Origin: a virus
IMG/VR virus record: IMGVR_UViG_3300028596_000037
Span: 1-37,150 of that record
Length of the DNA stretch: 37,150 nt
Direction: 5' to 3' (one strand)
The notes beneath the pieces are model-generated. The model was not told the origin of the DNA. It searched no databases and saw only the letters and a program-made list of their open reading frames with translations. How positions within the stretch are numbered: position 1 is the first letter of the stretch; every line of letters starts with the position of its first letter. A program made the position numbers and the translations under genes. Below, in pieces: positions 10,515 to 26,703 of the stretch.

Positions 10515-12311
10515 TTATGCCGCCATTGGAAGCATTACTTCACCTTCTACTGGGTTCATCAGGATTTCACGACGACGACGCAGTTCTGCCAATTCATCGA
10601 CCATTCCCATTTCGCCCAGACGCTCTTCGAACACTGCTGCCATCTGATCTACTTCTGGGAAGCGGAACAGTTTGTGCGACAGGTTGATAGCATTAGCTGC
10701 AGGACTGCTGGCGTAGTTCACTGCAATCTCACGCAGCTGCATCTCGTCTGCACCTTGGATCTGATACACTTCCATCATGGTTGTATGGTTGCTGACGTTT
10801 TCGGTCAGTGTACCGGTTGGGTATGCACCCTCCACGTCCAAGTCGGAAGTAGCTGCTCGACCTTGGCTTTGAACATCGAACAGACCACCGAAGATAAACA
10901 TACCTTGGCTGGCGTTCTTCTCGGTATCGAGCAAAGCAATCCAATCGCCCAAACCAGGGAGACGGCTGGTGAAACGAGTATCGCGTTGCGAAGGAGTCGA
11001 ACCCCACACATAACCGTGGTCACGTGCAATGAAGCTAAGGGTGTCCGAGATAAGCTTAGGCTGCGACACGAAGTTGAAGTATTCGGAATAACGCAACAGC
11101 ATCGGCAACGACAAGGTGAAGTCGAAGGTCTTTTCATTGATCTCTTCGATAGGCCAGTTGTCAGCGATGTTGTAAGACGCATACAGATACTTGTAGTCGG
11201 TCTGCATACCACGGTGCCACTGTGGTGTGCCATTACCCCAATGACGTCCTTCGTCGGTGTACAGCTTGCCTGGTACTTCTTCGCGGTTGGAGATTGCTTC
11301 CAACGAATAGCTTTCCAACTTACCGAACGGGAAACGTTTAATAGCGTAAACAGACATTGCATCTGCCCACTGCCATTTCGCCATGGTCCGTACTGTTGGG
11401 AATTTCTCTTGTGGTTCCAGTGGCGTACGGTCACCGTTCTCTTTAACCTTGTGGGTACGACCCAGGTCCAGTTTGTAGTAACGGAAGTCTTTCGGAATGC
11501 TCTTGTCGCAATAGACCTCTTCGAGATCATAACCTTCACGACGCAAAGCTTCGTCACATGCAGTCATGTCATAGCTGGCATTCCACGACGCCACCCAGTC
11601 CGGTTCCCACTCATGGAACTTACCGATACAGGCTGCTACTACTTGACCCGGTGTGTCAAACAGTTCGTAGACGATCTTACATTGACGACGGTCGACGTGT
11701 TCTTTAAGGTACTTGTCTTCCGATTCTTTTAACTTGCGTAGGATCGTTTCATCGTCTTCTTCTTTGAACCAACTCCGTACCCCCGCCCAGTATGCTTTGG
11801 TCTTCATGGTGACCGAAGCCATCATAATAGGTTTGTCCGGATGGAACATATCCGCTTCAACGTCAAACGCTGCTAACGTGTACGGTTCCTTCTCCTGGAT
11901 CTCCCCATACTTCTCGAAGAACTTACGTTTAAAGTGTACCGGTGGTGTTTGGTCCAAACCGAATACATACTGTTCACTGCTAACGTCGCGAATAGTCGCT
12001 TTATAGTCGGCAGCTCCGTACAGTTGCTTCTTGACTTCAAATGGGATCTTACAACGGGGCAGGTTATACTCGCGCACCATCGAGTTACGAATGTAATCTT
12101 TGTGTTGCTTGAACTTCCGATGCGGTTCTTTAACGATCCACATCGGCTGTTTATAATTCTCCATCGCAATAAAAGAATTACTGCGGGTACCGTCTTCATG
12201 GATGTTGGTGATCTTGGCACACAACAGGTCTTTATTACGGTCAAATTTGTGCTTACTGTAAGCGGCACTCTTACAAACCCGTGCAACGACAGGCGAAGTG
12301 TTCTTGATCAT
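10515..12311 (-). CDS. B-family DNA polymerase, 3'-5' exonuclease part extending to motif A
   Basis: 598 residues. Proofreading motifs are all present: Exo I D150-V-E152, Exo II N244..Y247-D248 and Exo III Y380xxxD384. An FGG (474-476) stands where polymerases have YxGG. Polymerase motif A appears as DLDVEGAYP (490-498), like DxxSLYP. The protein then ends about 100 residues later without motif B (KxxxNSxYG) or motif C (DTD), so it cannot extend DNA alone. phiKZ-related phages such as OBP are known to encode exonuclease and polymerase portions as two polypeptides. The partner is not in this window. No continuation exists downstream, only a hairpin and structural genes. The ATG at 12311 faces the protease gene at 12390. 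Confidence 0.88.
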   Translation of the reverse strand: MIKNTSPVVARVCKSAAYSKHKFDRNKDLLCAKITNIHEDGTRSNSFIAMENYKQPMWIVKEPHRKFKQHKDYIRNSMVREYNLPRCKIPFEVKKQLYGAADYKATIRDVSSEQYVFGLDQTPPVHFKRKFFEKYGEIQEKEPYTLAAFDVEADMFHPDKPIMMASVTMKTKAYWAGVRSWFKEEDDETILRKLKESEDKYLKEHVDRRQCKIVYELFDTPGQVVAACIGKFHEWEPDWVASWNASYDMTACDEALRREGYDLEEVYCDKSIPKDFRYYKLDLGRTHKVKENGDRTPLEPQEKFPTVRTMAKWQWADAMSVYAIKRFPFGKLESYSLEAISNREEVPGKLYTDEGRHWGNGTPQWHRGMQTDYKYLYASYNIADNWPIEEINEKTFDFTLSLPMLLRYSEYFNFVSQPKLISDTLSFIARDHGYVWGSTPSQRDTRFTSRLPGLGDWIALLDTEKNASQGMFIFGGLFDVQSQGRAATSDLDVEGAYPTGTLTENVSNHTTMMEVYQIQGADEMQLREIAVNYASSPAANAINLSHKLFRFPEVDQMAAVFEERLGEMGMVDELAELRRRREILMNPVEGEVMLPMAA

Positions 12312-12389: not shown

Positions 12390-13751
12390 ATGATTTCAAT
12401 GGACTTCCTGACCGGCCCACGGGAGGGGATGGAATTTATTGATTTCCAGTCCGCGGACTTCTACGACAAACTTTCTGGGTTCCTCGAATCCAATATCAAC
12501 TCTGCAAACGTGCTGTCGAAAGACTCTGCAGAAGGTATACTGAAAATTGTTGAGGAGTTCACCGGATTCAGGAACGTCAAGATCCACTTCACCGAGACCG
12601 GTAACCTGGCAGTAAACGTGGCGTACTTCTCGCCTAACCACGTGTTCAACAGCGACATGGCTGAAGCCCTGCTCAAGCCTACGCAGTCGTCGTTGTACCA
12701 GTGGTTCACCCAGAACAAAGAAAAAGTCTTCAAAGGTTCGGTTAACTACCGGACAGGTAAAGTGGAAGGTGCCTTCCGCGACGTACCCATTGATCTCTAT
12801 ATCAACGTCAACCTCGACGCCTCCTTCCCAGCCGAACACCGTGACAAATACGGTGTCCCGATACACGGTCTGTTGGCCGGAGGGATCGCTCACGAGAAAG
12901 GCCATTGCTTCGGCGCTTGCGCATTGATGGCCACTGCGGTGAAGGATAACTTCCTCGCCAAAGCTGCGTTGACGTTCTATAAAACGCGCACCAACATCGA
13001 AGACCGTGTGGTGGTGTTGCAGGACATGAATAGCCTCCTGGATCTCAAACCAGCGAAGCAAAGTGAACTGCAAGCGCTCGCACAAGATGAAGACGAATCG
13101 ACCGCTATTATGTATTTCAACAAACTTGTGGTACAGCGCAATCAAACCCGCGCTCTGTCCCTGGGTGTTGAAACCATGTCCTCTGAGGTCATGGCTGATG
13201 CCTACGCGATCCGTATGGGTTGCGACAAGGCTATCCTGGCGGCTATCGGTACCTTCGTCGATAAAGGTTGTATCCAGGTCGTAATGGAATCCTTCATGGC
13301 AGCGTGCTTCTACACCTTGTTTGCAGGTGCCATGCTGTTACCTATCGTCCTGGAGATGATCGTAGCGGGAGCGCCGTTGGCTATCCTACTGATCACGGGT
13401 GTATTCACCTTTGGTATCGCGATGATCCTCGATTACTTCTTTAAAGGGTATTCTGGGATCTACAACGCCGGTCACCGTCGTTTCGAAGATGCCATGCGTC
13501 AAATGATCCACAAGTTGAAAGAAGTCAAGATGGACAGCAAGGAGAAAGCACAGCTGCTGCAAGACCTTGAGAAGTTCATCCAGATCAACAAGACCCTGCG
13601 TCCTTGGTACGACCAGACCATCACCCATCGTTTCTATGGCTGGCTGTTCAACGGTCGTGACTTCAAGCGTCAAGAAGTAGAACACTACACCCAAGCTCTC
13701 GCCAACAACGAAATGAACGTATTGGCTGAAAAACTCAAAACCCTCGCCTAA
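12390..13751 (+). CDS. Membrane-anchored HExxH metalloprotease, M48-like
   Basis: 453 residues. HEKGH at 168-172 follows a hydrophobic helix (GLLAGGIA) and is the zinc/catalytic motif of gluzincin proteases. E266 in SSEVMAD (264-270) has the ExxAD form of the third zinc ligand in family M48 (HtpX, Ste24). Residues ~297-350 hold two hydrophobic segments long enough to cross the membrane. After them, GHRRFEDAM (361-369) recalls the HPxxxxR segment of M48 proteins. The last 80 residues are charged helices. The phiKZ prohead protease is a serine enzyme, so this is a second, different protease. Its place directly upstream of inner-body-like genes suggests a role in virion maturation, ejection or the host membrane. 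The start at 12390 has AAAAGGAG upstream. The fold call is fairly firm; the role is unknown. Confidence 0.7.
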   Translation: MISMDFLTGPREGMEFIDFQSADFYDKLSGFLESNINSANVLSKDSAEGILKIVEEFTGFRNVKIHFTETGNLAVNVAYFSPNHVFNSDMAEALLKPTQSSLYQWFTQNKEKVFKGSVNYRTGKVEGAFRDVPIDLYINVNLDASFPAEHRDKYGVPIHGLLAGGIAHEKGHCFGACALMATAVKDNFLAKAALTFYKTRTNIEDRVVVLQDMNSLLDLKPAKQSELQALAQDEDESTAIMYFNKLVVQRNQTRALSLGVETMSSEVMADAYAIRMGCDKAILAAIGTFVDKGCIQVVMESFMAACFYTLFAGAMLLPIVLEMIVAGAPLAILLITGVFTFGIAMILDYFFKGYSGIYNAGHRRFEDAMRQMIHKLKEVKMDSKEKAQLLQDLEKFIQINKTLRPWYDQTITHRFYGWLFNGRDFKRQEVEHYTQALANNEMNVLAEKLKTLA

Positions 13752-13763
13752 GGAGTCGCGCAC

Positions 13764-14177
13764 ATGTCGCATCTGGCCCTCGTTATCAAATGCAAGCAAG
13801 AACTGGCAGAAGCTGGTGTTCTGTGCGCCGTTCAGCAATCCGAGCTGCTGAGCGAAGCTTACATCCGTGCAGGGATCGCCTACATCCACCGTCACGGTAA
13901 CGTCCTCACCCAGGACATCGAGAAACGTATCTGGAAGATGCTGGACAAGTGGAACTCGGTTTCCCCGATCAACGCTCCCTTCATCAACCAGTCGATCATT
14001 CAGCGTCTGAACCTGCTCCAAGGTGCTCTGGCCAACTTCGGCGCACTGCCTTGCCCGAAAGCGTTCACTGCGGTGGCTGAACTGCCGGAAGAACGTTCCC
14101 TCGACGTCGGCAAACAAGCCTGGTTCCAAGACCTGGTGGATTACCTGGTAAAAGAGATGGAGGCTTGCCATGAGTGA
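13764..14177 (+). CDS. Small helical protein of unknown function
   Basis: 137 residues, helical, with two cysteines near the N-terminus (C12 and C22) and one near the end. No family is recognised. AAGGAG lies eight bases before the ATG and includes the stop of the protease gene. Its 3' end overlaps the next gene by eight bases, so protease, this protein and the inner-body-like protein at 14170 form one translational unit. It may act as a chaperone or partner for one of them. This rests on position only. Confidence 0.7.
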   Translation: MSHLALVIKCKQELAEAGVLCAVQQSELLSEAYIRAGIAYIHRHGNVLTQDIEKRIWKMLDKWNSVSPINAPFINQSIIQRLNLLQGALANFGALPCPKAFTAVAELPEERSLDVGKQAWFQDLVDYLVKEMEACHE

Positions 14178-15702
14178 TGAGGCTGGCGCCCAACTCGATT
14201 CTTATAAACAGATCGACCATGCCAACCCCACCGATGGTGTAAAACCTGGCGACGGCGAACAGCGTATCGACCTGACCGAGTACTACAAAGAGACCGGTCA
14301 GGCTGAAGGCACTGTAATGATGCAGGGTTACGAAGAGATCAGCCTCGGACGTCTGTCCAAGCGTATTGCAATGCTTATCAAGCTGCAGGGGGCTGAGGCC
14401 TTCGATCCCTTCCCTTCCGAACGCAACACTGTCGCCGGGCAAGAAGGTTTCTTCCACACAATCTCCGAGAAGTTCAAGGAGATGATCGAAGGAATCATCA
14501 AGTACATCAAAATGGCGATCAACTGGATCATTGACACCGTTAAGAGTTTCTTCGGTTTCCGTAAGAGTGCGCGTATCACTCGGGAGATTGATGGGAAGCT
14601 TGCGGAACTCAAGGAACAGTTCGAAGAAACCATGCTCGGTCTGGGTTTCCCGAAAGACCATTACAACGTTGAGAACTTCCTCGGTACGTTGCCTGCTGGT
14701 AAGAACGTCAAGTTCCAATTGCTGCTGTTAAAGAGCAAGTTCGAAACTGACCAGGAAAGCATCGACGGTATCAGTGCTGCCCTTCCTCTGTTGGCGCAGG
14801 CAGTCGGTAAGCTGCGTCAGTCAAATGACAAAGCCATGGCGGCTACCAAAGGCCTGAAGAGGGTCATCAACGAAGAGTACACCCGTACGCGGGTACGCAA
14901 GTCTACCAACCAACGTGTGGACAGCCAGAACTCTACCGAAGCCAACCGCATCACCAAGGCTATCCAGGAAGTGAAGACTGCCCTGGACACTGATCCTATC
15001 GTTGATATCCTGGGCAAGGTCTTCGAGACCCTGTACAAGATCAAGTTCAGCAACGAAGAGCTCAGTAACGGTTTCGATAAGGTTCGTACTCAACTGCGGA
15101 ACAGCATCAAGACCGAAACAGTCAAGATCGCCCCGCAAAACGTTACTCACTTGCTCACCGGTATTCAATACCTGAACAAGCGTTATCTGGAAATCTCGGA
15201 TAACGAAGTGGACCTGTCGAGCATCAACTGGAAAGCTTTGGGCGATGTGGTCGATAAGACGGATTCCGACAAGATCAAAGCCATGGCTGACTACTACGGT
15301 TATCCTGCACTCCTGGCTAACTACCAGGGGATGACTGTGGAAGTTCGTAACTTCGTTCAGTACTGCTTCAACGTGTCGAACTCGTTGATGACCGTGCAGA
15401 AGCAAGTCGAGAACTTGGTAGGCTGGTACAACCGTACCCACACCTACTTCTACGCTGGCGTGATGGAAGACATCGATACCTTGATCGCCATGGTAGAAGA
15501 TGCCAAGTCCAAAGGTCACAGTCCCCTCCTCAACAAACACGGCTTGCCGCAACAGCTCTTGTTCATCAAGGAAGCTGATGCGCTGACCCTGATGGAGAAA
15601 CTGTCTTCTAACCTTAACTTCGCTATCGAGAATGATGTGGCGGGTGTTAAGACGTCGATCAACAATTTCTCCAAACAAATCGGATGGGGTAAACAGATAT
15701 GA
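14170..15702 (+). CDS. Inner-body-like virion protein with G-x-E cleavage site (paralogue 2)
   Basis: 510 residues. The propeptide (1-92) ends in AGQE (89-92). The predicted mature N-terminus starts GFFHTISEKF and continues as an amphipathic helix to about residue 130, ending in a phenylalanine-rich turn (SFFGF). This order (G-x-E, then an aromatic helix ending in FF) is shared with the proteins at 9358, 25405, 26827 and 27904. The rest is a long helical body with many Lys, Asn and Thr residues and a Tyr-rich section near 395-440. By family it should be packaged in the head and processed by the prohead protease. It overlaps its neighbours on both sides (8 bases upstream, ATGA downstream). Confidence 0.65.
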   Translation: MSDEAGAQLDSYKQIDHANPTDGVKPGDGEQRIDLTEYYKETGQAEGTVMMQGYEEISLGRLSKRIAMLIKLQGAEAFDPFPSERNTVAGQEGFFHTISEKFKEMIEGIIKYIKMAINWIIDTVKSFFGFRKSARITREIDGKLAELKEQFEETMLGLGFPKDHYNVENFLGTLPAGKNVKFQLLLLKSKFETDQESIDGISAALPLLAQAVGKLRQSNDKAMAATKGLKRVINEEYTRTRVRKSTNQRVDSQNSTEANRITKAIQEVKTALDTDPIVDILGKVFETLYKIKFSNEELSNGFDKVRTQLRNSIKTETVKIAPQNVTHLLTGIQYLNKRYLEISDNEVDLSSINWKALGDVVDKTDSDKIKAMADYYGYPALLANYQGMTVEVRNFVQYCFNVSNSLMTVQKQVENLVGWYNRTHTYFYAGVMEDIDTLIAMVEDAKSKGHSPLLNKHGLPQQLLFIKEADALTLMEKLSSNLNFAIENDVAGVKTSINNFSKQIGWGKQI

Positions 15703-16418
15703 CCTGGGAACAAGTCCTCGAAGAGAAGGTCAAGGCGGAAGAGAGTGTCCGTCAAACCTGCGAGAACACCAAAGCCTTCATGAAAGAAGTGCAAGGTGGT
15801 CTGAAGCTTGCGGTGGCCAAACGGATCATTGAAAAGATCTGGGGCATGGGTGTACAGGGTCGCAAGATGGTGGCGCAGTTGTCTGCCAGTTTCCCTGAGC
15901 GTAACGTAGAAGTCATTCGTTACGAGAACCTGCCCAAAGAAGCCATCCCCAAGTTGGTGGGTCACGTCGAGCCTTGCCAGGCTTTCTACAGGGTCGCCTT
16001 TGAGTATATCAATGAGCTGATCAAAGAGATCCTGGAACTGTGTCAACGTGCAGACGCCAACGACCAACTGGCTCAGCGGCATTTCAACGAGATCCGCAAG
16101 AACGTGTTGAAGTATGTCGACATCGTGCTTTACGATTCGGTGAACTTTGCCACTATCCAGGCGGCTACCAAATGGGCTGATCTGAACCTGTCGTCGATCC
16201 GTGTTGATGACGGTGACTACATGTTCATGACCGAGTTCCAGGAAGAAGTAGGACGTGCCCAAGATGACGTTCTACGTCGTATGCACACCTACGGCGATAA
16301 CTGGACGGCCATCAGTTCGATCGAGTACCACGAAGAGGATCACTTGCACCAAATCAAACTGGTGTACCTGTTCGCGGAATACTTGCACAACCTGGTAAAA
16401 CCACCAGCGGCTGAATAA
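15699..16418 (+). CDS. Helical structural-type protein of unknown function
   Basis: 239 residues, helical, acidic towards the end. It starts within the stop of the inner-body-like gene (ATGA), so it is coupled to it. The segment DDVLRRMHTYGDNWTAIS (about 190-207) loosely resembles the short LysM-like or gpX-like turn of tail proteins (D-x-L-x-x-I-x-x-x-YGD-x-x-W). The match is weak and could be chance. It is the last gene before a 15-bp convergent hairpin. Confidence 0.7.
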   Translation: MTWEQVLEEKVKAEESVRQTCENTKAFMKEVQGGLKLAVAKRIIEKIWGMGVQGRKMVAQLSASFPERNVEVIRYENLPKEAIPKLVGHVEPCQAFYRVAFEYINELIKEILELCQRADANDQLAQRHFNEIRKNVLKYVDIVLYDSVNFATIQAATKWADLNLSSIRVDDGDYMFMTEFQEEVGRAQDDVLRRMHTYGDNWTAISSIEYHEEDHLHQIKLVYLFAEYLHNLVKPPAAE

Positions 16419-22529: not shown

Positions 22530-23035
22530 TGACCGAGTTCGCGCTGGTATCCAATGGTTTCGTGGCGAGTGGGATTCCTGATGCCGAACTGACCGGTATT
22601 TTCAAGAATCTCAAAGCCCTCAAGAAAGACAGTTATGTTGACTTCACTGTTGTGCTCAAAGGTCATATGGCCGTTGAAGTTATTCGTTGCGTTCGTCGTC
22701 TTACTGGCGATTCCTTCCGCGATTGGATGAAAGCCAACAGTGATGGTCCGATCGGCCCGCTGGTCCGCGACCTCCTCAACTACTTGAATGGCAAGGTGGG
22801 TTACCACACGGTACACTCTTCCATTGCCATTCAGGAATCCCGATTGACCCAGGTCGATCATTTCCACTCGGCTGTTTATACCCCGACTACCCGTCAGGAA
22901 AGTTCCTTGGAGCCGCTGTTGAAGCAAGGCATGTCTTTGCATGACTATGACTTCTATCGACTCATGGCAGGCATCGGTGCGGTGGACATCGCCCGGATCT
23001 TCTTACTCTTAGGCGGGGAGAGCTACTATGCCTGA
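22529..23035 (+). CDS. Small protein of unknown function
   Basis: 168 residues, mixed helix and strand, with two or three hydrophobic stretches near the ends but no clear membrane segment. No family is recognised. It is wedged between overlapping neighbours: its ATG shares the previous stop (TGATGA), and the next gene starts eight bases before its own stop. Codon use is less biased than in the genes just upstream. Coupling suggests it acts with the 23028 product. Confidence 0.7.
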   Translation: MTEFALVSNGFVASGIPDAELTGIFKNLKALKKDSYVDFTVVLKGHMAVEVIRCVRRLTGDSFRDWMKANSDGPIGPLVRDLLNYLNGKVGYHTVHSSIAIQESRLTQVDHFHSAVYTPTTRQESSLEPLLKQGMSLHDYDFYRLMAGIGAVDIARIFLLLGGESYYA

Positions 23036-24338
23036 CGCAAGCGAACTTCAACTGGCTGCCGAGATGGCGGTTATCTCCACAGCTAAGTCTGCCGAACTGG
23101 TGGAGCTGGCTGGGAGTACCGACCGCCTGCAGCGCATTCAGGAGGACCTCGACGACCGCAAAGACAACGTGGAAATCGTGAAGCGTATCCTGACCGCCAC
23201 CCAACCTCATCAGTTGGACATGGCGGAAGCAGAACGCATCGACCAGCGTCTGGAACGGGCTGAGGTAGAGATCCCTGCTGTGAGTGAAGCAGAAGGGGTT
23301 CTTGGAGCCGAATGCCTGGGCCGTAGTCTGATGGTCAACGATTTCTTCACTACCCGTCTGATGGGCTGTGAGAACTTCCTGGCTAACTTCTACCAGCAAG
23401 CACGTCAGATCACCCAGTTGATCGGCGCAAACTTCAAAGAAGTCTACCTGGTCCTCACCGAAAGTGTCGACAGCCTCGAGAAGCAAGTGGATCTCCTGGA
23501 GAAACAAATCCAGGCGGCACCCAACTTCAAAGCTGGTACTGACCGTATTGCCCTTGGCGTGCGTCTGTACAACCTGCTCAAGGTAAACGGCAAGATCAGT
23601 GAAGACTGGGTCAGCAACATCAGTAAGCTGCACAGCTCTATCCAGGGCCTGAGCACCAACTATTACCTGAACAGCAAAAACAACCTCAACGCCACCCTGA
23701 GTTACTTCGGTGGTTTCGCTGACGTTGATGATGTGGCAGGTAAGGAACGCTTCTTGTTGCTGCCGAAGGCTATCCCTTCGACTCGCTTTAAGGAGTGCAC
23801 CTACCCGAACCGCGACAACAGCACTAACACTGTGTTGGCGAAGCAATCGGTAGAGTTGATGGGCGGCGCTTACTTCGTTGACGGTCGTCGCGAGAAAGTC
23901 AACCTGGAACCGAAAACGGTCGAGCAGGTAGAAGGTTACATCCAGGGCTACGTAGATTTCGATTTCACGGGCTTTGAGAACAAATCCACCGTAGAGTATC
24001 CGAAAGTCGGTACTGACGTTGCTACGCTGTCCGCTGAGTCCATTAAGGTCATCTGCAAACAGCTGCGTGACATCATCAAAAACTGGCGTAAGGCATTCGA
24101 GGGTGATCACCGCTACAAGCTCGAAGATAGCGACTACAACGATGTCGTCAAAGGCATCTATGAGTCGGCCATGTCGGAAGAGATGAAAAGTCGTGTGCGT
24201 GATGCTTTCAGCACCATCGTACGCAAGAACCAGCTGGAGCTGCTGACCATCCGTGCGGCGGTAAACAACTACCTGGTTCTGGTCTTCAACGGCATTATCG
24301 AGCTCGCCAATACCTCGATTCGTGCTAACGAACCGTAA
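23028..24338 (+). CDS. Helical virion-type protein of unknown function
   Basis: 436 residues. The N-terminal 90 residues are a charged helix with coiled-coil spacing (LVELAGSTDRL, ERIDQRLERAE). The middle has strand-like parts (residues ~200-330) and the C-terminus is helical. AEGVLGAE (about 87-94) contains possible S/A/G-x-E cleavage positions (AEG/GAE), but the aromatic helix seen in the inner-body-like proteins does not follow, so processing is uncertain. The start overlaps the previous gene by eight bases. GGGGAGAG ahead of the ATG gives a usable ribosome site. Confidence 0.7.
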   Translation: MPDASELQLAAEMAVISTAKSAELVELAGSTDRLQRIQEDLDDRKDNVEIVKRILTATQPHQLDMAEAERIDQRLERAEVEIPAVSEAEGVLGAECLGRSLMVNDFFTTRLMGCENFLANFYQQARQITQLIGANFKEVYLVLTESVDSLEKQVDLLEKQIQAAPNFKAGTDRIALGVRLYNLLKVNGKISEDWVSNISKLHSSIQGLSTNYYLNSKNNLNATLSYFGGFADVDDVAGKERFLLLPKAIPSTRFKECTYPNRDNSTNTVLAKQSVELMGGAYFVDGRREKVNLEPKTVEQVEGYIQGYVDFDFTGFENKSTVEYPKVGTDVATLSAESIKVICKQLRDIIKNWRKAFEGDHRYKLEDSDYNDVVKGIYESAMSEEMKSRVRDAFSTIVRKNQLELLTIRAAVNNYLVLVFNGIIELANTSIRANEP

Positions 24339-25404: not shown

Positions 25405-26703
25405 ATGGACATTTTCAACCAATACGCTGGCGCCGAAGAACTGGGTCTGGATGAAGGCGCTGCCTCCGTGGCCGAAGCTGCAGGCGACGCTGCTGAAGCT
25501 GCTGTATCCGCCGAAATCGGCGAAGTGACCGCGGCGCTCGAAGAGCAAACCGCCGAGATCGAAAAGCTGGTCGACAAGGTCGATGACCTGGAAGACGCCG
25601 TCGAAGAAGTCGAAGAAGCTGTTGAAGGCATGGAATCCATGCTGAACTCCGGCAACTTCCACTCGGTCTCCTTCGCCAACATGTACAACCGTGCGCTGAA
25701 GCTGGCTGAAAAGCTGCCTGCTCCGGAAGGCCAGATCATGCTGGGCGACCGCGTTGGTGCCGAGAACATGACCGACGCCGCTACCGCACAGCTGTTCGCC
25801 CGTGCCGGTATCGAATCCTTCGTCGAGCGCGTGAAGGAATACGGCAAGAAGGCCGTCGAGTTCATCAAGCACATCTTCAACCAGGTCATCAACTTCTTCG
25901 TCAGCCTGTTCAACAAGGCCGATGGTCTGACCCGCCGCGAAGCTCAGCTGCGTAAGCGTCTGAACGACGGCGCCAAGATCCGTGACAAAGTCAAGATGGG
26001 CGGCTGGAACGTCTACATCGACTACGCCACCGACGGCCTGAGCAAAGGCTCGAAGAAAGACAAAGGCAACTTCGACAAGACCACCAAGGCTGTTGCCGAT
26101 CTGGTCAAGGCCGCCCAGAAGGGCTCCAGCATGACCGTGGCCGACATCAAGTCGAAGCACGCTGCCGTTGTCACCGCGATCAAAGCGGACGCCAAAGAGT
26201 TCGGCAAGTACAACGAGAAGAAGAACGGTTCCAAAGACGTGATCCTGTCGCAAGCGGCTGGTATCCGTGCAATGGCCAACTTCTCCGAGCCGACCATCAA
26301 CAACTTCGCCGAAGCTGCCGCGGCCATCCGTTCGATCAAGCTGCAGATGGTCAAGGCTCCGGAAGCCAAGAAGATGTCCACCGGCGAAGTCAAGGCCAAG
26401 GCCGACAAGGCTGCTCTGGTTACCGTCCTCGACGGCGTCAAGGGCACCATCGCCGAAATCCGCAGCGACGAAACCGCCAAACTGATGACCGCTTCTGCGC
26501 GTGATCAGCTGGTCGGCACCCTGAACAACATGAAAGCGGGCAACAGCGACAAGTCCGCCGAAATCGATGGTCAGGTCAACGTCGTGAAGGCTGCTTGCTC
26601 CCTGGCTGCTCAGGTTGCTTCGAACACCAACAAGCAGCGCATCAACTCGGCCGGCGCCCACCTGGATGCCGTCGCAGCTCACCTGAGCTTCGGCAGCAAC
26701 TAA
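25405..26703 (+). CDS. Inner-body-like virion protein, probably most abundant (paralogue 4)
   Basis: 432 residues. The propeptide (1-137) is very acidic, with an Ala/Glu coiled coil (45-78), and ends in AGIE (134-137). The mature part starts SFVERVKEYG, continues as an aromatic amphipathic helix to NFFVSLFN (163-170), then a Lys/Ala-rich basic body. Precursor acidity and mature basicity fit a protein that packs DNA only after cleavage. Codon use is the most C/G-biased in the window. The gene also has its own leader palindromes and a strong UUCG terminator, all pointing to very high expression. phiKZ inner-body proteins are its likely relatives. Confidence 0.7.
   Translation: MDIFNQYAGAEELGLDEGAASVAEAAGDAAEAAVSAEIGEVTAALEEQTAEIEKLVDKVDDLEDAVEEVEEAVEGMESMLNSGNFHSVSFANMYNRALKLAEKLPAPEGQIMLGDRVGAENMTDAATAQLFARAGIESFVERVKEYGKKAVEFIKHIFNQVINFFVSLFNKADGLTRREAQLRKRLNDGAKIRDKVKMGGWNVYIDYATDGLSKGSKKDKGNFDKTTKAVADLVKAAQKGSSMTVADIKSKHAAVVTAIKADAKEFGKYNEKKNGSKDVILSQAAGIRAMANFSEPTINNFAEAAAAIRSIKLQMVKAPEAKKMSTGEVKAKADKAALVTVLDGVKGTIAEIRSDETAKLMTASARDQLVGTLNNMKAGNSDKSAEIDGQVNVVKAACSLAAQVASNTNKQRINSAGAHLDAVAAHLSFGSN

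Follow-up and report, generated by a model that had tools for sequence, protein, structure and literature searches.

A predicted M48-type metalloprotease with a putative propeptide and membrane hairpin, encoded among the structural genes of a phiKZ-type jumbo phage

Introduction

What would a zinc protease do among the structural genes of a jumbo phage? The question arises from a 37,150-base virus record, analysed here at its full length (the window), whose gene content marks it as a fragment of a jumbo phage of the phiKZ type, with genes for a helicase, a DNA polymerase, the beta subunit of an RNA polymerase, and internal head and other structural proteins. In an initial annotation one gene of the window was read as an M48-like metalloprotease that could mature virion proteins, act in the host envelope during entry or lysis, or cut a host defence protein. 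The family of this protein, its predicted active site, its membrane segment and its likely place in the infection cycle are considered here in turn. The features of the locus are summarized in Table 1.

Table 1. Features of the protease gene and its syntenic neighbours (positions are those of the window)
Feature	Position	Strand	Remarks
M48-like metalloprotease gene, 453 aa	12390..13751	+	PHROG 2767; homologue of EL ORF052, phiKZ gp84 and SPN3US gp45
Predicted propeptide, residues 1-15, ending in G13-M14-E15 ([AGS]-x-E)	12390..12434	+	Site of the prohead-protease type
HExGH zinc-binding/catalytic motif, H168-E169-K170-G171-H172	12891..12905	+	Invariant except x
Insert separating the two zinc motifs, residues 179-263, helical and resembling a four-helix bundle	12924..13178	+	Predicted secondary structure and fold matches
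ExxAD, E266-V-M-A-D270, third zinc ligand motif	13185..13199	+	E266 and D270 invariant; in profile register with ZMPSTE24
Hydrophobic block formed by residues 301-351, probably a membrane hairpin	13290..13442	+	Hydropathy; 25/25 homologues
Y358-x5-R364, probable counterpart of H(P)-x5-R in M48	13461..13481	+	Alignment with the family and HtpX
DNA polymerase (phrog_3011), syntenic upstream neighbour	10515..12311	-	Same order in RisingSun, OBP, SPLA10, Proteus phage 10 and others
Virion structural protein, 137 aa (phrog_14520), syntenic downstream neighbour	13764..14177	+	
Virion structural protein, 510 aa (phrog_14541), syntenic	14170..15702	+	Position of SPN3US gp47 / phiKZ gp86

Locus and gene neighbourhood

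The order of genes around the protease gene is kept in EL, RisingSun, OBP, SPLA10, Proteus phage 10, PCH45, Eowyn, pEa_SNUABM_48 and SPN3US. First comes a long gene of opposite strand, labelled DNA polymerase in several of these phages, and then the protease gene, a protein of about 140 aa and virion proteins or proteins of unknown function. In phiKZ the order 084-085-086 is kept and the upstream gene differs (083). By position as well as by sequence, phiKZ gp84 and EL ORF052 are syntenic homologues of the window protein. The gene two places downstream of the protease gene corresponds in position to phiKZ gp86 and SPN3US gp47, both ejection proteins in the view of Thomas and colleagues (PMC5694885).

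Two further observations were made on the neighbouring genes. A 239-aa open reading frame at window positions 15699-16418 contains HEEDH at residue 211 and gave no family match; this motif is probably due to chance. In the internal head proteins encoded at 23028-24338 and 25405-26703, [AGS]xE triplets recur within the first 200 residues, several to many per protein, as expected of substrates of a prohead protease.

Family membership

The protein matched PHROG 2767, a family of unknown function, with an E-value of 1.4e-85 over residues 8-452. With the window protein as query, tblastn retrieved 93 phage records, and more than 200 each were retrieved with the SPN3US and the phiKZ homologue. The phiKZ gp84 query also retrieved the members from phage AH04 and from Vibrio phages that are related to the window protein. 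EL ORF052 shares 45% identity with the window protein over the full length, and SPN3US gp45 about 17%, again in a full-length alignment that includes the motifs.

The family has been described before. Iyer et al. 2021 name AMR59696.1 as a conserved zincin-like metallopeptidase of the 'Group 1' (phiKZ-type) jumbo phages and propose a role in maturation (PMC7824862); AMR59696.1 corresponds to SEGD1 gp047 and has the same sequence as SPN3US gp45 (100% identity). This is the single instance found in which phiKZ gp84 or SPN3US gp45 is called a protease in the literature. Among sequence records, the homologue of Serratia phage Moabite is labelled an M48 protease on the basis of HHpred, with phiKZ084 cited, and that of AH04 is labelled a peptidase. 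The record of phiKZ gp84 lists a structural head protein, and neither this record nor that of EL ORF052 assigns a function. Given these descriptions, the window protein is a new environmental member of an already published family, and the statement of the initial annotation that an M48-like enzyme in this setting was not known to be described has to be withdrawn. The published note on this same family, as far as its available text extends, contains neither the propeptide site nor the position of the hairpin nor the replacement of histidine by tyrosine reported below; no priority is claimed for them.

Predicted zinc-binding motifs and conservation

HEKGH at residues 168-172 and ExxAD at residues 266-270, noted in the initial annotation, are found in the translation at exactly these positions, the latter as EVMAD. 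H168, E169, G171, H172, E266 and D270 are invariant in sets of 9, 21 and 25 homologues, with identities to the window protein down to 16%. The fully invariant columns among the 25 also include R275, G277 and R364, and A269 of ExxAD is kept in 22. Position 358 is occupied by tyrosine in 24 of the 25 homologues and by histidine in one (phage Eowyn). It lies six residues ahead of R364, just as H276 precedes R282 by six residues in E. coli HtpX, and both of these HtpX residues belong to the positions conserved in a set of four M48 proteins from E. coli. Judged from the alignments, the M48 motif set (HExGH, ExxAD, Y/H-x5-R) appears to be complete, with tyrosine replacing histidine in nearly all members.

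The window contains one match to a back-translated HExGH, and 15 of 100 shuffled versions contain at least one, so that HExGH alone is weak evidence. A chance origin of the motif was rejected because of its family-wide invariance. Comparison of the window protein with sequence L011 gave a dN of 0.32 and a dS of about 4 (saturated), which indicates purifying selection.

One residue of the motif is unusual. K170 (codon AAA, 12897-12899) is the sole charged residue at its position among the 25 aligned proteins; the other 24 have I, L, V, M, C or F. In the zincin HExxH consensus an uncharged residue is usual here. The lysine may be a real variant, and since it is unique and runs against this rule, the window copy may also be impaired or carry a contig error. 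A scan of viral contigs found no other contig encoding the local stretch IAHEKGHCFG.

Hydrophobic block

At a Kyte-Doolittle value of at least 1.6 the window protein has a single continuous hydrophobic block, residues 301-351. Two membrane-length segments at about 297-350 had been proposed initially; the hydrophobic region is present, in one continuous block rather than two, and is split into helices in the AlphaFold model (279-315, 317-325 and 330-353), which is compatible with a hairpin. A hydrophobic stretch between ExxAD and Y/H-x5-R was found in all 25 members, and an N-terminal hydrophobic stretch in none of them.

The position of the block separates the protein from the M48 proteins of E. 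coli. HtpX and BepA, LoiP and YcaL share with it HExxH and ExxAD, and their H-x5-R appears to be represented by Y358 and R364. In HtpX, however, the hydrophobic segments are found ahead of HExxH and in the interval from HExxH to ExxAD, whereas the sole block of the window protein follows ExxAD, and BepA, LoiP and YcaL show no more than a hydrophobic stretch at the N terminus. An HtpX-type arrangement was therefore rejected. The arrangement had first been likened to both HtpX and Ste24. In the M48A CAAX proteases ZMPSTE24/Ste24p, HExGH and ExxAD align in register with those of the window protein, at a similar distance from each other. Ste24 is organised around a seven-helix membrane barrel; the window protein differs in having one hydrophobic block, located after ExxAD, and an insert between the motifs that is not hydrophobic.

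Relationship to M48 peptidases

Searched as a single sequence against Pfam, NCBIfam and PDB, the window protein gave no M48 match; matches were obtained only from family profiles or from divergent members. Comparison with M48 profiles had been suggested in the initial annotation as a check, and its outcome is mixed: Pfam M48 (PF01435) leaves the window protein unmatched and matches several members, of which Moabite (20.4) lies above the curated cut-off of 20.3 and Proteus phage 10 (20.0) and SPN3US gp45 (17.7) lie below it. In a search of the family profile against PDB the best matches were ZMPSTE24/Ste24p (E 0.009), with HExGH and ExxAD in register, and the profile of a smaller alignment matched Ste24p with E 0.0036. 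Alignment of the family to the four E. coli M48 proteins with hhalign gave a P-value of 2.5e-5, confined to the HExxH region; alignments to BepA alone or to HtpX alone were weak.

The full-length protein was modelled with AlphaFold at a pLDDT of 76.8. Its VIA list mixed Ste24p (Z 6.4) with unrelated helical proteins, and a core model of residues 16-297 was built for this reason (pLDDT 85, pTM 0.84). The best VIA match of the core was Ste24p, over 161 residues, with a Z of 7.4, a value within the range where the tool warns of a mere common arrangement. Matches over the whole domain come from metalloenzymes (Ste24p, ZMPSTE24, 3c37, BlaR1 and YbeY), and the one to Ste24p lends indirect support to a common site of H168, H172 and E266; most others cover the helical bundle only, and those confined to the insert are helical bundles. 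Foldseek gave no significant match in PDB for the full model or the core, which was not taken as a sign of a different fold. In a library of predicted viral structures the model matched a zincin protease of AR9 and predicted phage M48 proteins. With modest Z values and no significant Foldseek match, the predicted fold is supportive of M48 and not proof. Together with the invariant motifs and the profile matches to ZMPSTE24/Ste24p, these modest structural matches uphold the initial reading of an M48-like metalloprotease among structural genes.

Predicted propeptide site and head packaging

SPN3US gp45 was detected by mass spectrometry in the virion proteome and annotated as 'Head. Processed at ASE-20' (PMC5694885), and it is listed again as a substrate of gp245 (PMC10052503). 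ASE is present at residues 18-20 of its sequence, and the glutamate of this site aligns with E15 of the window protein. This glutamate is invariant in all 25 homologues, and P3 is occupied by G, S or A throughout (16, 6 and 3, respectively), in agreement with the S/A/G-X-E rule of the phiKZ protease (PMC13282480). About 25% of shuffled sequences contain some [AGS]xE among their first 25 residues. The 25 homologues are related and do not count as independent tests, but the columns beside the site are poorly conserved. The region of residues 1-15 is modelled as disordered (pLDDT ~31). Cleavage at the site is proven by mass spectrometry only in SPN3US gp45; packaging in the head is well supported, and both packaging and trimming probably extend to the PHROG 2767 proteins in general. 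No amber mutant marks SPN3US gp45 as essential (PMC5694885).

The 'zincin protease' g051 of the Bacillus jumbo phage AR9 (L042 40783-42060) resembles the window protein as an M48-like relative in having HEIGH, ExxAD and HP-x4-R; unlike the phiKZ-type members, it lacks a hydrophobic block as well as an [AGS]xE close to its start, and could be an ancestral or soluble form. Zinc motifs without both of these extras are consistent with propeptide site and hairpin going together in the sampled phiKZ-type branch, for which AR9 is a single and thin point of comparison. The pair is in turn consistent with a packaged, membrane-acting enzyme. In the same phage, the record of g078 (L043 12477-15572) states that this virion RNAP-associated protein is found in virions only as a proteolysed piece.

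Proposed role

The reading preferred here, to which we give an even chance, is that of an M48 (gluzincin)-type metalloprotease that is packaged in the head, trimmed in the prohead, ejected, anchored in a host membrane and engaged early in cutting a membrane or membrane-proximal protein. The short propeptide would direct the protease into the prohead and perhaps keep it inert. After its removal by the prohead protease, the mature enzyme would stay in the head until ejected with the DNA and the virion RNA polymerase. The hydrophobic hairpin would then insert into the host inner membrane or the membrane of the early-infection vesicle, where the active site would cut its target. H168, H172 and E266 are predicted to bind zinc, E169 to activate water, and Y358 to stand in for the histidine conserved in M48. 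The synteny with genes of ejection proteins counts in favour of this reading. The early infection vesicle contains injected virion proteins (PMC12908238), and in the papers on SPN3US gp45 the protein is described just as a head protein. That phiKZ-type (nucleus-forming) phages inject a dedicated, membrane-anchored M48 protease from the virion, matured at an invariant site by the prohead protease and acting at the host inner membrane or helping the early vesicle to form or open, is put forward tentatively. The literature search found no test of a role as injected protease or in host-membrane cleavage.

Of the three roles named at the outset, entry or action in the host envelope fits best, and maturation of the virion is possible and less favoured. 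A maturation protease would make further cleavages of head and inner-body proteins inside the prohead, as proposed by Iyer et al. 2021 (PMC7824862). The enzyme does reside in the head among many processed proteins, and the AR9 record of a virion RNAP protein present only as a proteolysed piece points the same way. The SPN3US study, however, attributed the 14 cleavages that it mapped, in nine head proteins, to gp245 (PMC10052503); it looked for gp245 sites, and its map gives no hint of a second enzyme, though it was not designed to find one. The protease is moreover itself a substrate of the prohead protease, and a conserved membrane hairpin has no obvious use in the head. We regard maturation, the main rival, as unlikely on this evidence.

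Packaging and ejection would also suit an enzyme that is delivered into the cell and there, at the membrane or in the cytoplasm, cleaves one particular protein of host defence or regulation, and phage peptidases aimed at the host are noted in general by Iyer et al. (PMC7824862). The authors of that paper expect such peptidases to be patchy and variable, whereas this gene is single-copy, fixed in its syntenic place and strongly conserved across hosts. Counter-defence or takeover, which only a substrate would set apart from the ejected membrane enzyme, is judged quite unlikely. A structural or catalytically dead protein of the head, retaining the M48 fold with zinc as a stabiliser, would account for K170 in the window copy and for the low Pfam M48 scores. 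Loss of E169 in some members would be expected of a dead scaffold, and this residue is invariant in all 25 homologues, as are both histidines and E266; we consider a dead protein very unlikely.

How jumbo phages cross the envelope, deliver a large load of proteins and build a membrane vesicle in the first minutes of infection is poorly understood. For these early steps, a conserved, head-packaged protease with a probable membrane hairpin is a concrete candidate that can be mutated, and its invariant prohead-protease site helps to make the maturation enzyme and the injected enzyme testable alternatives.
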